NCBI GenBank assembly: GCA_021159005.1
Contig: JAGGSN010000054.1
Span: 1 to 34,273 of the forward strand
Origin: Candidatus Zixiibacteriota bacterium
Lineage (GTDB): Bacteria > Zixibacteria > MSB-5A5 > UBA10806 > 4484-95
Length of the DNA: 34,273 nucleotides
Reading direction: 5' to 3'
This document shows, in pieces, positions 1 to 4,237 of the stretch. Positions within the stretch are counted from its first letter, which is position 1. The number at the start of each line of letters is the position of its first letter. Position numbers and translations under genes: made by a program. The notes below the pieces were generated by a model. The model saw only the letters and a list, made by a program, of their open reading frames with translations, was not told the origin of the DNA and did not search any database.

Positions 1-1224
1 ACTGAAGTTTATCAATTTTCTTATTACAATCCAGAGACCTTTACGCTTTACTGGTTTAATAACGATAATCAAATATATAAAATTACTTCTGATAATATTA
101 AACTTATTGATAATGGTACTGATGGAGTATTATTTCTTTATCAGAGAGATTATACCCCCAATATTCTATCAATCGATGATAACGCGAGAAAACTATATGA
201 TGACTGCTCAGAACAACCGTTACTGGATAAGTACTTAATATCAAGGGTCAATTTTGAAGATAATGGTTTAACCTTAGCTGAAAAACAGCAATTGTTGGAA
301 TTATGGTTCTATAGTTTATTTTTTGAATCTATCATGCCAACAAAACCCATTTTGGCTATTTTAGGAGAAGCAGGTTCTGGAAAATCAATGACAATAAGAC
401 AGATTGGGAAGCTTCTGTTTGGCGATTCCTTCAATGTAATGTGTCTGACAAACGATGCCAAAGATTTTGATTCAGCTGTATCTAACAATTACTTGGTAGC
501 AATCGATAATGTTGATACGAGCACTAAATGGTTAAATGATAAACTTGCAGCCATTGCTACTGGGACAGTTTTGCAGAAGCGAAAATACTACACTACCAAT
601 GATCAGGAAACCATTTCAATAAGATGTTTCTTAGCACTTACATCTAACAATCCACACTTCCGCAGAGAAGATATTACTGATAGATTGTTGCTTTTACGAG
701 TTGCGCGTATTGAAAAATTCGTAAGTGAGGGAGTATTATTAAAAGAGATTTCAAACAACCGCCAAGAAATTTTAACAGAGATAGCATTCATTCTTCAAGA
801 GATCATTCAATGTTTGAAAGAAGAAAGCGACAAACGTTATGGTTCGAATTTTCGAATGGCTGATTTCGCTGATTTTGCTATTAAGATTGGCAAAGGATTA
901 TTTTCAGAAGAGACTATTCGCGATATATTCATTAAACTCAAAAAAGAGCAATCAATGTTTACTTTAGAAAATGACGAAATTGTTGAATTATTATATTTAT
1001 GGATAGATAGAAATCCTGCAGGTCGCGAGATAACAAGTTCCCAATTATGCAGTGAGTTATCATCGATAGCTGAAAATATTAATATTCCATTTTTCTATAA
1101 AGATAAACCCCGATCTTTTGCACAGAGATTATCAAGGCTAAAACGTAATCTGCAGGAGTTATTTGTTATAAATGAAAGGAAAGCTGGTGGTAATAAGAAA
1201 TTCTATTCATTTAAGAAAAGGTGA
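1..1224 (+). CDS. Primase/helicase-type P-loop ATPase of an integrative element (5' partial)
   Basis: The frame is open from base 1 with no stop, so the gene begins before the window and only its last 407 residues are seen. In fragment numbering a Walker A motif, GEAGSGKS, lies near residues 122-129. A Walker B-like strand, YLVAIDNVD, lies near 164-172, and a sensor-1-like strand, CFLALTSNNPHFRREDITDR, follows about 40 residues later. This order resembles the ATPase half of phage or plasmid primase-helicases (D5/P4-like, SF3/AAA+), which unwind DNA at the element's own origin. The C-terminal part (about residue 310 on) looks like a small helical DNA-binding region. The gene shares a strand with the small element genes that follow and ends just before an array of GTTAAAAG motifs, consistent with a replication role. 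The ATPase call is firm; the primase/helicase role is inferred. Confidence 0.7.
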   Translation, partial: TEVYQFSYYNPETFTLYWFNNDNQIYKITSDNIKLIDNGTDGVLFLYQRDYTPNILSIDDNARKLYDDCSEQPLLDKYLISRVNFEDNGLTLAEKQQLLELWFYSLFFESIMPTKPILAILGEAGSGKSMTIRQIGKLLFGDSFNVMCLTNDAKDFDSAVSNNYLVAIDNVDTSTKWLNDKLAAIATGTVLQKRKYYTTNDQETISIRCFLALTSNNPHFRREDITDRLLLLRVARIEKFVSEGVLLKEISNNRQEILTEIAFILQEIIQCLKEESDKRYGSNFRMADFADFAIKIGKGLFSEETIRDIFIKLKKEQSMFTLENDEIVELLYLWIDRNPAGREITSSQLCSELSSIAENINIPFFYKDKPRSFAQRLSRLKRNLQELFVINERKAGGNKKFYSFKKR

Positions 1225-1270
1225 TTGTATGCTGATAGATTATAGAAACAACATTTCACCCTTTTCACTA

Positions 1271-1504
1271 CTTTTAACACCCCTTTTAACTCTCGTAAGT
1301 GGTTGTGAGGTAAACAATAATGCTCATAAAGTTAAAAGAGTTAAAAGTTTTTTTTAATTTGATGGAAAAAATATGAAGGTTGGGATTAATTATATTAAAA
1401 AGTGAGAAAAAACTTTAACCATTTTAACTATCGTTGTATAATTTATTGTGATACAATATGATAGCAGAATTATAAGGCGGTTAAAAGGGTGAAAACAGTT
1501 AAAG
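1271..1504. repeat. Paired GTTAAAAG motif array, possible element origin or operator
   Basis: Eight copies of GTTAAA(A)G or its complement fall in four pairs. Two reverse copies are at 1271 and 1283, two forward at 1331 and 1340, two reverse at 1413 and 1422, and two forward at 1480 and 1498. The outer pairs are also flanked by a shared TTTCACCCTTTT-like word in opposite orientation (1255-1266 and 1483-1495). The block fills the non-coding gap after the primase/helicase-like gene and ends at the ribosome binding site of the next gene. Iterons beside a replication gene, or a multi-site operator, are both possible; no function is proven. Confidence 0.55.
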
Positions 1505-1519
1505 GTTATCGAGGTAATT

Positions 1520-1774
1520 ATGAAATTAGCTGAGATGATGAAACAAAGGCAAAAAAGAATAGCGATTGAAAATCAAGAGAAACTTGAGTGTTTATCGGCA
1601 TATCTAAAAAGGTCATTAGACAATGAAATAAATCGACAAATCTCTTTAATTTCTTTGCAAACACTCATGCCAAGACAGAAGGTCGAGAACTATTACAAGT
1701 CGATAATCATCGAGCATATTAGCCAGGGCAATCACTCTAAAAAAATGGCAGAAAGCTCATATCAATTCAGCTAA
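1520..1774 (+). CDS. Small basic hypothetical protein of the integrative element
   Basis: This 84-residue protein starts at an ATG preceded by GAGGT with a 5-base gap. It is rich in Lys, Arg, Gln and Glu, has no membrane segment and is predicted by eye to be mostly helical. I do not recognise a family. It follows the paired-motif array and precedes the KSTGP-family gene by 34 bases on the same strand, so the two are probably co-transcribed. A small DNA-binding or regulatory protein would fit the setting, but no motif shows it. Confidence 0.5.
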   Translation: MKLAEMMKQRQKRIAIENQEKLECLSAYLKRSLDNEINRQISLISLQTLMPRQKVENYYKSIIIEHISQGNHSKKMAESSYQFS

Positions 1775-1808: not shown

Positions 1809-2339
1809 TTGACAACATCAACCCAAAAGATAGAAGCTAATCGTAAAAACGCTAAGAAATCCACCGGCCCCAAAAATACATCATTAGTTCGATTAAACGC
1901 CATAAAACATGGTCTATTGAGCAAAGATACTGTGATTCAAAGTGAAAGTAAAAAAGAACTTCAAGAACTTGGCAAAAGATTGAGAATGGAATTAGCTCCG
2001 CAAGGTGAGTTGGAGATTATACTTGTTGACCGAATAGTATCATCTATATGGCGTATGAAAAGAGCTATCAGGGTCGAGCGGGATTATATACAAGCAGAAT
2101 TTAATGATTGCAAATATAATTACAATGATAACGAAAGAGAAGATATTGAAGCTTGGAATAATGTGGCAACCAAAGAACTTGGTAATACCAACACCTGGCT
2201 TAATTTAACCCGCTATGAGACTGCGATTGAACGACAGATATATAAAGCTCTACATGAGTTGATGAGAATACAGAGCGCGCACAAAGGTGATAAGCCACTG
2301 CTTCCGCTTGCTGTAGATGTTGATGTGTCTAAGGATTGA
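1809..2339 (+). CDS. KSTGP-motif hypothetical protein (mobile-element associated)
   Basis: The start is TTG at 1809, preceded by AAGGAGGGG at 4-5 bases, one of the strongest ribosome binding sites in the element. The 176-residue product opens with ANRKNAKKSTGPKNTSLVRL and then NAIKHGLLSKD. This short conserved N-terminal module recurs in uncharacterised proteins of Planctomycetes and other phyla, often in accessory DNA. The middle (about residues 60-105) has a helical stretch with DRIVSSIWRMKRA, and the end carries LTRYETAIERQIYKALHELMRIQ, also typical of the family. No catalytic motif is visible. The basic N-terminus suggests nucleic-acid contact, which is inference only. Confidence 0.7.
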   Translation: MTTSTQKIEANRKNAKKSTGPKNTSLVRLNAIKHGLLSKDTVIQSESKKELQELGKRLRMELAPQGELEIILVDRIVSSIWRMKRAIRVERDYIQAEFNDCKYNYNDNEREDIEAWNNVATKELGNTNTWLNLTRYETAIERQIYKALHELMRIQSAHKGDKPLLPLAVDVDVSKD

Positions 2340-2521: not shown

Positions 2522-3076
2522 ATGGGCAGATACTCTTGGTCAAATAGAAATACAGTAGAAGAATGTGAAGCTATTTCAATATCTTGGTTACGACAACATG
2601 ATTATCTTTGCGGATTCAGATCAGGTGTAATTGAATGGCGATCAGCCGGCGGACACAAAACAAGTGTCGGGATTGAAGTATCAGTTGATAAAATTAATAC
2701 TTATGGAAGCTTTTTGAAAATCAATTATGATATAACTAAAAAAACAACCGGAGAGATACAGAATTATAATTACAAGGTTGAAATCGTTTCCACTCCATGC
2801 AATTATGGCGGCGCAAGATACTGGTTTATCTGTCCGCTTACTACCGATGGCCGGTATTGCGGAAGAAGAATAGCTAAACTTCACTTGGCACCTGGCAGTA
2901 ATTATTTCGGTTGTAGGCATTGCCATAATCTCACTTATACAAGCTGTAAAGAACATGATAAAAGAGTTGACGCGCTGATGAAATATCCCGATTTATTGAA
3001 CCGATTTTCATCAGAAGGCAATGTCAAGGATACTCTGTTAGTATTGAAAGCTCAAGCTAAATTGCTGGGCATGTAA
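2522..3076 (+). CDS. Zinc-ribbon hypothetical protein of the integrative element
   Basis: This is a 184-residue protein with an ATG start and an AGGTAGG-type upstream site. The second half has the pattern GARYWFICP, then GRRIAKLHLAPG, then YFGCRHCHNLTYTS. I recognise this as the layout of a widespread uncharacterised zinc-ribbon family found in mobile and accessory regions. The CRHC pair and an upstream Cys could hold a metal, although the first half-site is degenerate (one Cys in FICP and one in RYCG rather than a tidy CxxC). The N-terminal half is a basic, beta-rich region. It is the last plus-strand gene before the recombinase, which faces it convergently. Function is unknown; nucleic-acid binding is the likeliest role. 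Confidence 0.65.
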   Translation: MGRYSWSNRNTVEECEAISISWLRQHDYLCGFRSGVIEWRSAGGHKTSVGIEVSVDKINTYGSFLKINYDITKKTTGEIQNYNYKVEIVSTPCNYGGARYWFICPLTTDGRYCGRRIAKLHLAPGSNYFGCRHCHNLTYTSCKEHDKRVDALMKYPDLLNRFSSEGNVKDTLLVLKAQAKLLGM

Positions 3077-3274: not shown

Positions 3275-4150
3275 TTACAACCTATCAGCCGGACTTAGCC
3301 TTCTATGGCTTATCTGCAAGCCCTCCTGATTGACTATCTGATTGATATATCGCTGAGTTGTACTCAGGCTTGAATGTCCAAGCAGTATCTGTATATGCTG
3401 AGCGGGCATTTCGTGTTTAGCTAAGAAAGTAGCGGCAGAATGCCTCAGTAAGTGAGGGGAGACCTTTACACCGATTTTCTGGCCAAGTCTTCTGACAGTT
3501 CGCTGGAAATTGCGGGTCGAAATAAGCATACCACCTTTTGTACAAAATAAAAACTGCGATTCTATTTCATTACGATATTTTAGATATTTAAGAATTTCCC
3601 GTTTAGTTTTATTTCCAAACGGTACTATTCTTTCTTTGTTTCCTTTACCCAAAATTTTAATAGTTTTAAATTGCATATTGAGATTAGCCAGTTCTATTGT
3701 AAGAAGTTCGCTAAGTCTGATAGCGGTATCCCATAATAAAGTTATCATTGCTTTATCTCTAACATTGAATAATCCTTTTACCGGAATAGTTGAAATAAGC
3801 TTAGAAACCTTGTTTTCATCGAGTACGGGTTTAATCCTTTTGGGTTCTCGTATTTTAATTAGTTTAGCCATTGGATTGTCATCAACAACATCCTCCCTTA
3901 TTAAAAATGAATAAAATACTTTCATGGCTTTGATATAATGATTAACAGTATAGGGTGATAGCCCTTCATTTAATCTCTCTAAAACATATTCCTTCACCTT
4001 CTGTCTGTCAACCGACATTAAATCACCATGTCGCTCTTCAATGTCTGATAAAAGTCGTTTATATTCTGAAATTACTTTGTCGGCTAAATTTCGATAGCGA
4101 CAATCACTGATAAATGCTTCTACCAAGTCTGATGTTCTCTGAAACCTCAT
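3275..4150 (-). CDS. Tyrosine recombinase/integrase (XerC/D type)
   Basis: It catalyses site-specific strand exchange and is probably the integrase of the element to its left. The start at 4150 is chosen because GGGAGG lies 6-7 bases upstream; a start 5 codons earlier lacks such a site. The 291-residue product has an N-terminal SAM-like core-binding domain (about 1-95) and a catalytic domain (about 105-285). The full catalytic set is visible: R145 (TAIRLSELL), K169 (LGKGNKER), H233 and R236 (SPHLLRHSAAT), H259 (LLGHSSLSTTQ) and nucleophile Y268 (RYI). Length and motifs match XerC/D-like integrases. Its start is only about 35 bases from a tRNA-Gly 3' fragment, the usual place for an integrase beside its att site. 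It appears intact, so the element may still be mobile. Confidence 0.92.
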   Translation of the reverse strand: MRFQRTSDLVEAFISDCRYRNLADKVISEYKRLLSDIEERHGDLMSVDRQKVKEYVLERLNEGLSPYTVNHYIKAMKVFYSFLIREDVVDDNPMAKLIKIREPKRIKPVLDENKVSKLISTIPVKGLFNVRDKAMITLLWDTAIRLSELLTIELANLNMQFKTIKILGKGNKERIVPFGNKTKREILKYLKYRNEIESQFLFCTKGGMLISTRNFQRTVRRLGQKIGVKVSPHLLRHSAATFLAKHEMPAQHIQILLGHSSLSTTQRYINQIVNQEGLQISHRRLSPADRL

Positions 4151-4183
4151 TATGTTACCTCCCAACGAGTTAGGTTGTTGTTT

Positions 4184-4237
4184 GAGAGCATCAGCTTCCC
4201 AAGCTGGACGTCGTGGGTTCGACCCCCATCACCCGCT
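4184..4237 (+). other. att site: displaced 3' fragment of tRNA-Gly(CCC)
   Basis: The anticodon stem TCAGC/GCTGG encloses the loop TTCCCAA (anticodon CCC). A T-arm GTGGG TTCGACC CCCAT follows, then the 3' acceptor strand CACCCGC and discriminator T. The expected 5' acceptor GCGGGTG is missing: the aligned bases 4165-4171 (ACGAGTT) pair at only four of seven positions and the D-arm is poor. It is best read as the 3' part of a tRNA gene left at the right end of an integrated element, with the rebuilt tRNA beyond the left edge of the window. No CCA is encoded. A decayed full tRNA is the alternative. Confidence 0.75.

Follow-up and report, generated by a model that had tools for sequence, protein, structure and literature searches.

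Alternating iterons beside a D5-type primase-helicase gene in a Zixibacteria element: a probable replication origin

Directly behind a primase-helicase gene (rep) in the genome of a Candidatus Zixiibacteriota bacterium lies a gap in which a short word is repeated in alternating orientation. Is this gap the replication origin of a mobile element, or does it serve some other purpose such as control of the genes that follow? It was analysed within a window of 34,273 nucleotides, the whole stretch of DNA considered here, which starts at the first base of contig C54 in an assembly of 241 contigs, with the result that the N-terminal part of the Rep protein is lost at the contig end. A sequence-only reading of the window had described, at 1271-1504, eight motifs grouped into four pairs of alternating orientation, and had offered both an origin with iterons and a cooperative operator.

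A degenerate core scan revealed 11 copies of GT[T/G]AAA (GTKAAA) at 1254-1503, in four blocks of four reverse, two forward, two reverse and three forward copies (R4-F2-R2-F3; Table 1). The start-to-start spacings within these blocks are 9, 10 and 12 bp, 9 bp, 9 bp, and 9 and 9 bp, respectively. The alternation and the location noted earlier are therefore real, but the copies are not simply paired, and the array begins at 1254, since the GTGAAA variants at the edges had been missed. The first of these short iterons lies 29 bp past the rep stop codon at 1224, and iteron sets flank both sides of an AT-rich middle spacer of 64 bp. The outer blocks do share a further inverted word, as had been claimed: TTTCACCCTTTTCAC (1254-1268) and GTTAAAAGGGTGAAA (1480-1494) are 93% complementary, the word being the GTGAAA variant of the motif. 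No long direct repeat was found in 1100-1700. A terminator was not found either, and a search for Rfam RNA elements returned the tRNA fragment only.

Table 1. Features discussed in the text; coordinates are those of the window unless a locus is named.
Feature	Position	Strand	Remarks
Rep, C-terminal 407 aa of primase-helicase initiator	1..1224	+	D5/DUF5906/VapE-like AAA+ domain and C-terminal winged helix
Predicted winged-helix domain of Rep, predicted to bind iterons	976..1218	+	Probable recognition helix PRSFAQRLSRLKRNL
Iteron block R1	1254..1290	-	Four copies, - strand reading: 1254 GTGAAATG, 1263 GTGAAAAG, 1273 GTTAAAAG, 1285 GTTAAAAG
Iteron block F1	1331..1347	+	Two copies: 1331 GTTAAAAG, 1340 GTTAAAAG
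AT-rich middle spacer, proposed melting site	1348..1411	no strand	81% AT, against 66% for the element
Iteron block R2	1412..1428	-	Two copies, - strand reading: 1414 and 1423 GTTAAA
Sigma-70-like promoter match	1415..1442	+	TTAACC-16-TATAAT, 10/12; overlaps block R2 and faces the next ORF
Iteron block F2	1480..1505	+	Three copies: 1480 GTTAAAAG, 1489 GTGAAAAC, 1498 GTTAAAGG
ORF84, first gene past the array	1520..1774	+	No Pfam family
176 aa ORF (KSTGPKN...NAIKHGLL)	1809..2339	+	Counterpart in the G075 element
184 aa zinc-ribbon-like ORF	2522..3076	+	Counterpart in the G075 element; interrupted one in G005
Tyrosine recombinase (integrase) of the element	3275..4165	-	Pfam Phage_integrase, E=2e-37
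tRNA-Gly(CCC) 3' fragment, probable attachment-site half	4173..4234	+	Without 5' acceptor strand; anticodon read by eye
CGGTTA arrays in Gastranaerophilales loci	L020 4600-4714; L022 4581-4699; L023 4573-4701; L024 4583-4702		

The 11 sites occupy 260 bp in which 0.32 would be expected from the rate in the rest of the window (Poisson p ~7e-14, for a stretch picked after being seen), and the array is the top-scoring 6-mer cluster of the whole 34 kb. For the 380 bp that follow rep, the highest count of any 6-mer is 8, above the value in each of 500 dinucleotide shuffles (mean 4.1, maximum 7). The block order carries less weight in one element alone, four runs of at least two arising in 3% of permutations of ten sites; it is strong evidence because it recurs in relatives. 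With this recurrence added, the earlier judgement that such order is unlikely by chance holds.

The protein encoded next to the array is a primase-helicase-type initiator. It passes the curated Pfam cut-off for both DUF5906 (E=8e-7) and VapE-like (E=1e-6), and its full-length relatives of 839-861 aa (43-47% identical) show, in an alignment read by eye, an N-terminal CPFC..C zinc-finger-like motif as well as a TOPRIM-like segment. These relatives have few Pfam matches, and the family as a whole is poorly covered by that database. AlphaFold2, supplied with 19 related C-terminal sequences, gave a model with pLDDT 90 and pTM 0.88. Its C-terminal region (pLDDT 85-95) is predicted to form a winged helix with helices at residues 346-360 and 370-384, followed by strands at 388-394 and 400-406. 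The Foldseek neighbours in the PDB are SCCmec Cch (5dgk), the NrS-1 primase-polymerase (6k9c), the ASFV PrimPol (D5 class) and SaPI5 PriRep1 (7ola and 7pds, the latter with dsDNA), at query TM-scores of 0.36-0.52. Another structural neighbour, the helicase of Microbacterium phage Zeta1847, has no such array at the 3' end of its gene; a CGGCGA cluster there lies inside the gene and looks like codon bias. In PMC7581432, SaPI Rep and SCCmec Cch2 are each described as using the C-terminal domain to bind direct repeats located downstream of the gene that encodes them, and because this domain binds ori in both proteins, an iteron-binding role is predicted for the Rep winged helix.

Past three small ORFs the window contains a tyrosine integrase gene and a tRNA-Gly(CCC) fragment, which indicate that it holds one end of an integrated element. 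The fragment scores 21.5 bits with the Rfam tRNA model, under the gathering score of 29, and was not called by ARAGORN. Searches of the assembly with the tRNA stretch and with the Rep N-terminus of a relative found neither the N-terminal half of Rep nor the other element end, and neither an intact tRNA-Gly(CCC) copy nor the other att half. In the place of ORF84 the relatives have small ORFs of 59, 90 and 73 aa. At four loci the small ORF directly past the array carries an ERAxIxExDGxxSREEAE motif (L026 9222-9401, L027 2133-2405, L028 11835-12056 and L041 about 7360) and is possibly part of the replication module; ORF84 lacks this motif.

The nearest Reps, 43-47% identical, come from G005, G013 and G075, genomes belonging to the same class or order, and comparison of the same gap, which the sequence-only reading had put forward as a check, showed the R-F-R-F plan at the same place in all three. 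The arrays past rep are R3 F1 R1 F3 in G013 (GTKAAA), R2 F3 R2 F2 in G075 (GTKAAA/GTGAAT) and R4 F2 R2 F4 in G005, where the words are GGGTTA-like. The layout is thus conserved in related replicons while the motif is Rep-specific; absence of the paired layout from related elements, which would have counted against the proposal, was not what we observed. Between the window and G013 the intergenic regions share a match of 28 bp, and no match to G005 or G075 was found. Beyond this the regions can hardly be aligned, so recent common descent is not a sufficient explanation of the shared plan. In most relatives with four blocks an AT-rich spacer occupies the middle, as in the window. The genes that follow differ: G013 has a serine recombinase behind a small ORF, and G075 has a small ORF, a zinc-ribbon ORF and a KSTGPK ORF; because the array nevertheless stays at the end of rep, it is tied to this gene and not to those downstream. 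We also observed in G013 a second, distantly related Rep whose gene is followed on its 3' side by an array of its own, made up of ten TGCGAA sites in alternating groups (L015 619-944), so that one genome contains two such replicons with different words.

Several known replicons can be compared with this arrangement, and the closest known match is the crr region of phage P4. As a positive control the array scan was applied to the P4 genome, where it ranked crr first and ori second. Type 1 ori repeats are annotated in just these two regions [GenBank X51522], and the scan thus recovers the annotated replication sites of a D5-type primase-helicase. The crr lies between the alpha stop codon and attP and contains ten 8-bp iterons, the annotated repeats running F-RR-FFF-RR-FF in the alpha direction. 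As in the window, the array is immediately 3' of a D5-type primase-helicase gene (alpha), its iterons span some 270 bp and form groups whose orientation alternates, its GGTGAA word resembles GTGAAA, and Pfam DUF5906 is common to alpha and Rep. By contrast, crr is built from a pair of direct repeats of 120 bp each, and 4.5 kb from it P4 carries another array, ori. With no long direct repeat in 1100-1700 and a single cluster in the longer related loci, the window array is not a crr proper as far as the incomplete element shows. Alpha and Rep are hardly comparable by sequence, hhalign aligning the ATPase region only, with a probability of 3%. A 21-bp match between crr and the window array is an A/T-tract in opposite orientation and was not weighed.

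The pri-rep-ori modules of PICI/SaPI elements (SaPIbov1, SaPI5, EcCICFT073) are also similar. As described in PMC6092414 and PMC7581432, their iterons follow rep directly on its 3' side and form two sets with an AT-rich region between them, and the Rep has a C-terminal DNA-binding domain; SaPI5 PriRep1 moreover resembles the predicted structure of the window Rep. The differences are four alternating blocks in place of two sets, a different Rep family and an uncultured lineage. The PICI hallmarks of Stl/AlpA regulation, TerS and phage interference were not seen in the cut element. It has an integrase and a rep-ori arrangement and no visible regulator, its left part lying beyond the contig end. 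The putative origin of SCCmec Cch2 likewise has direct repeats between a D5-type helicase gene and the next gene (PMC7581432), with the difference that there are only three 5-nt iterons, within one 23-bp direct-repeat region. In the crenarchaeal plasmid pRN1 the origin is directly downstream of a gene for a primase, SF3 helicase and winged helix (PMC4234260), yet it is a 100-nt stem-loop and has no iterons.

Taken with these comparisons, the array very probably represents the Rep-binding iterons of the replication origin of an integrative element, of the P4 crr or PICI/SaPI rep-ori kind. The kind of system is already known; the lineage, the words and the breadth are new. We infer from the arrangement that Rep binds the array, that the duplex melts between the blocks and that replication starts there. 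In the active element the D5-type primase-helicase would use its C-terminal winged helix to bind the GTKAAA iterons, and the in-block spacing of 9-12 bp, about one helical turn, would set neighbouring Rep subunits on one helix face. With oppositely oriented blocks on either side of the AT-rich middle, Rep hexamers may then face one another head to head. Opening of the duplex would occur at about 1348-1411, after which the helicase-primase could start replication.

More distant Rep homologues extend the comparison, at least nine of them having three or more alternating blocks, each with its own word. Those from other genomes (23-31% identity) with alternating arrays include G178 (GGTGAC, R2 F2 R2 F2), G032 (GTGACG, F1 R2 F3 R2 F2 R2), G151 (ATGACG, alternating) and G270 (GGTGTA, R2 F1 R1 F2). 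The arrays of G151, G178 and G270 lie within rep itself, at the 3' end of its reading frame and past the winged helix, and in such cases the origin is predicted to lie inside its own initiator gene. In distant homologues the nested arrays (L007 1439-1632, L009 1249-1439 and L010 781-955) encode a low-complexity tail after the winged helix. Read along rep, the arrays start with a reverse block wherever polarity could be judged (GTKAAA, GGGTTA, GGTGAC, GTGACG, ATGACG and GGTGTA), the exception being one extra leading site in G032.

In IMG/VR a search with the window Rep sequence alone found no close relatives, and homologues were recovered with alignments as queries. The arrays there include L038 (TGTTAT), L048 (AGGGCA, R3 F4 R1 F3), L053 (ACCTCC, R4 F2 R2 F2), L068 (AACCTG, R2 F2 R1 F2) and L067 (AACCAT, R2 F2 R1), as well as simple R2 F2 arrays in L059 and L060. 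The interval 3' of rep was the best of 47-100 intervals per locus in seven of the 24 loci tested (L046-L048, L053, L067, L068 and L070, L046 being on the same contig as L038). About a dozen of the 24 gave nothing in this position. Such an array is thus not present with all Rep homologues, none being detected 3' of rep in L035-L037/L043-L044, L050-L052, L055, L058 or L069. The median Rep pair is 30% identical and some Reps are close to each other (L053/L059 83%; L038/L048 73% over the compared region), so that the cases are not all independent. In elements of Gastranaerophilales, whose Reps are 36-39% identical, rep is directly followed by an excisionase-like HTH gene and an integrase, and no array lies 3' of it. 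They carry a compact, smaller CGGTTA array of the form ++/-- a good way upstream of the part of rep that codes for the C-terminus, probably close to the start of the gene (Table 1). One of their loci also contains five CCTGTC copies at exactly 63-bp spacing (L019 7213-7465), probably a tandem repeat.

The word of an element follows its Rep. For the 17 arrays compared, the Mantel correlation of motif similarity is r 0.46 (p 0.0002) with similarity in the winged-helix recognition segment and r 0.44 (p 0.0002) with that in the helicase domain. When the helicase is controlled for, a partial Mantel value of r 0.21 (p 0.012) is left for the recognition segment, and in a run with one misframed row it was not significant (p 0.36); apart from general relatedness, motif and recognition helix are weakly linked. 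An FAQ[KR] helix is common to the three GTKAAA elements and LTRKLN to two TGACG elements, which suggests such a link from the protein sequences of a few cases. The two Reps of L038 and L048, so similar to one another, stand beside clearly different iteron words (TGTTAT and AGGGCA), a contrast which suggests fast turnover of origin specificity.

Could the array be a Rep-bound cis-acting site for replication control, resembling P4 crr or acting in incompatibility or handcuffing, with initiation at another origin in the element? P4 has both ori and crr, and it is crr that sits 3' of alpha with the plan seen in the window; furthermore, the left part of our element is missing, so that a second array could be there. 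Against this, the motif occurs in one cluster only in the 19.0, 11.6 and 14.1 kb around the G005, G075 and G013 Reps and in the 5.9-12 kb around those from IMG/VR, and a single array 3' of rep is the origin in PICI/SaPI elements (PMC6092414). We consider initiation elsewhere unlikely, if a serious contender; the array may conceivably be an accessory site of the crr kind, the actual origin then lying in the lost left part.

A cooperative operator, by which a regulator or Rep itself controls the genes starting at 1520, is improbable as the main function. The last iteron ends 15 bp upstream of the ORF84 start, the final GTTAAA of L027 touches the next start codon, and a sigma-70-like match overlaps block R2. 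Two such matches were found where 1.8 are expected by chance, however, and at this level the match is not evidence on its own. No repressor gene adjoins the array, which remains with rep while the downstream genes vary from a small ORF and zinc-ribbon ORF to a serine recombinase, and the arrays nested in rep do not precede a gene. Nor do motif pairs mark a genome regulon, five of 17 matches being at the array while a reversed control pattern gives 24. With the array following rep, the motif tracking Rep and P4 crr having the same place and plan, the origin is strongly favoured over the operator of the two functions first proposed. It would be nothing unusual for one site to serve as both origin and operator, and the array may have a secondary promoter or operator role for ORF84.

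Partition (parS or centromere-like) sites or the arm or excision sites of a recombinase are very improbable. Such sites are also short repeats of alternating orientation, but the integrase is 1.8 kb and the tRNA fragment 2.7 kb from the array, no parA/parB-like gene was seen in the stretch, and the plan is common to elements with unrelated recombinases (tyrosine in the window, serine in G013). Chance clustering, for which the AT content of the element and the consequent commonness of GTTAAA-like words might speak, can be dismissed on the counts given above and is refuted by the recurrence of the plan in relatives, which extends to GC-rich words in GC-rich loci (G178, G032).

A replication origin at the array would turn an unannotated gap into a testable site for a class of elements in uncultured bacteria. 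It suggests a rule for finding origins, namely to look for alternating iteron blocks just past the winged helix of the initiator. In P4 the rule picks out crr and ori; elsewhere it reveals arrays of new words next to at least a dozen Reps that have no origin described in the literature examined. Tentatively, and with rather less confidence than we would need to favour it, the doubled (R..F)(R..F) plan at the rep 3' end may be a general, sequence-predictable origin grammar for the D5-type helicase replicons of many uncultured elements and viruses. The word would change fast with the winged helix while the geometry (9-12 bp spacing, AT-rich gap) stays, and some origins would be nested in rep. 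If so, this geometry would reflect paired helicase hexamers loaded on each side of the melting site. The matched pairs of Rep and iteron would provide material for working out both a recognition code and the geometry of helicase loading.
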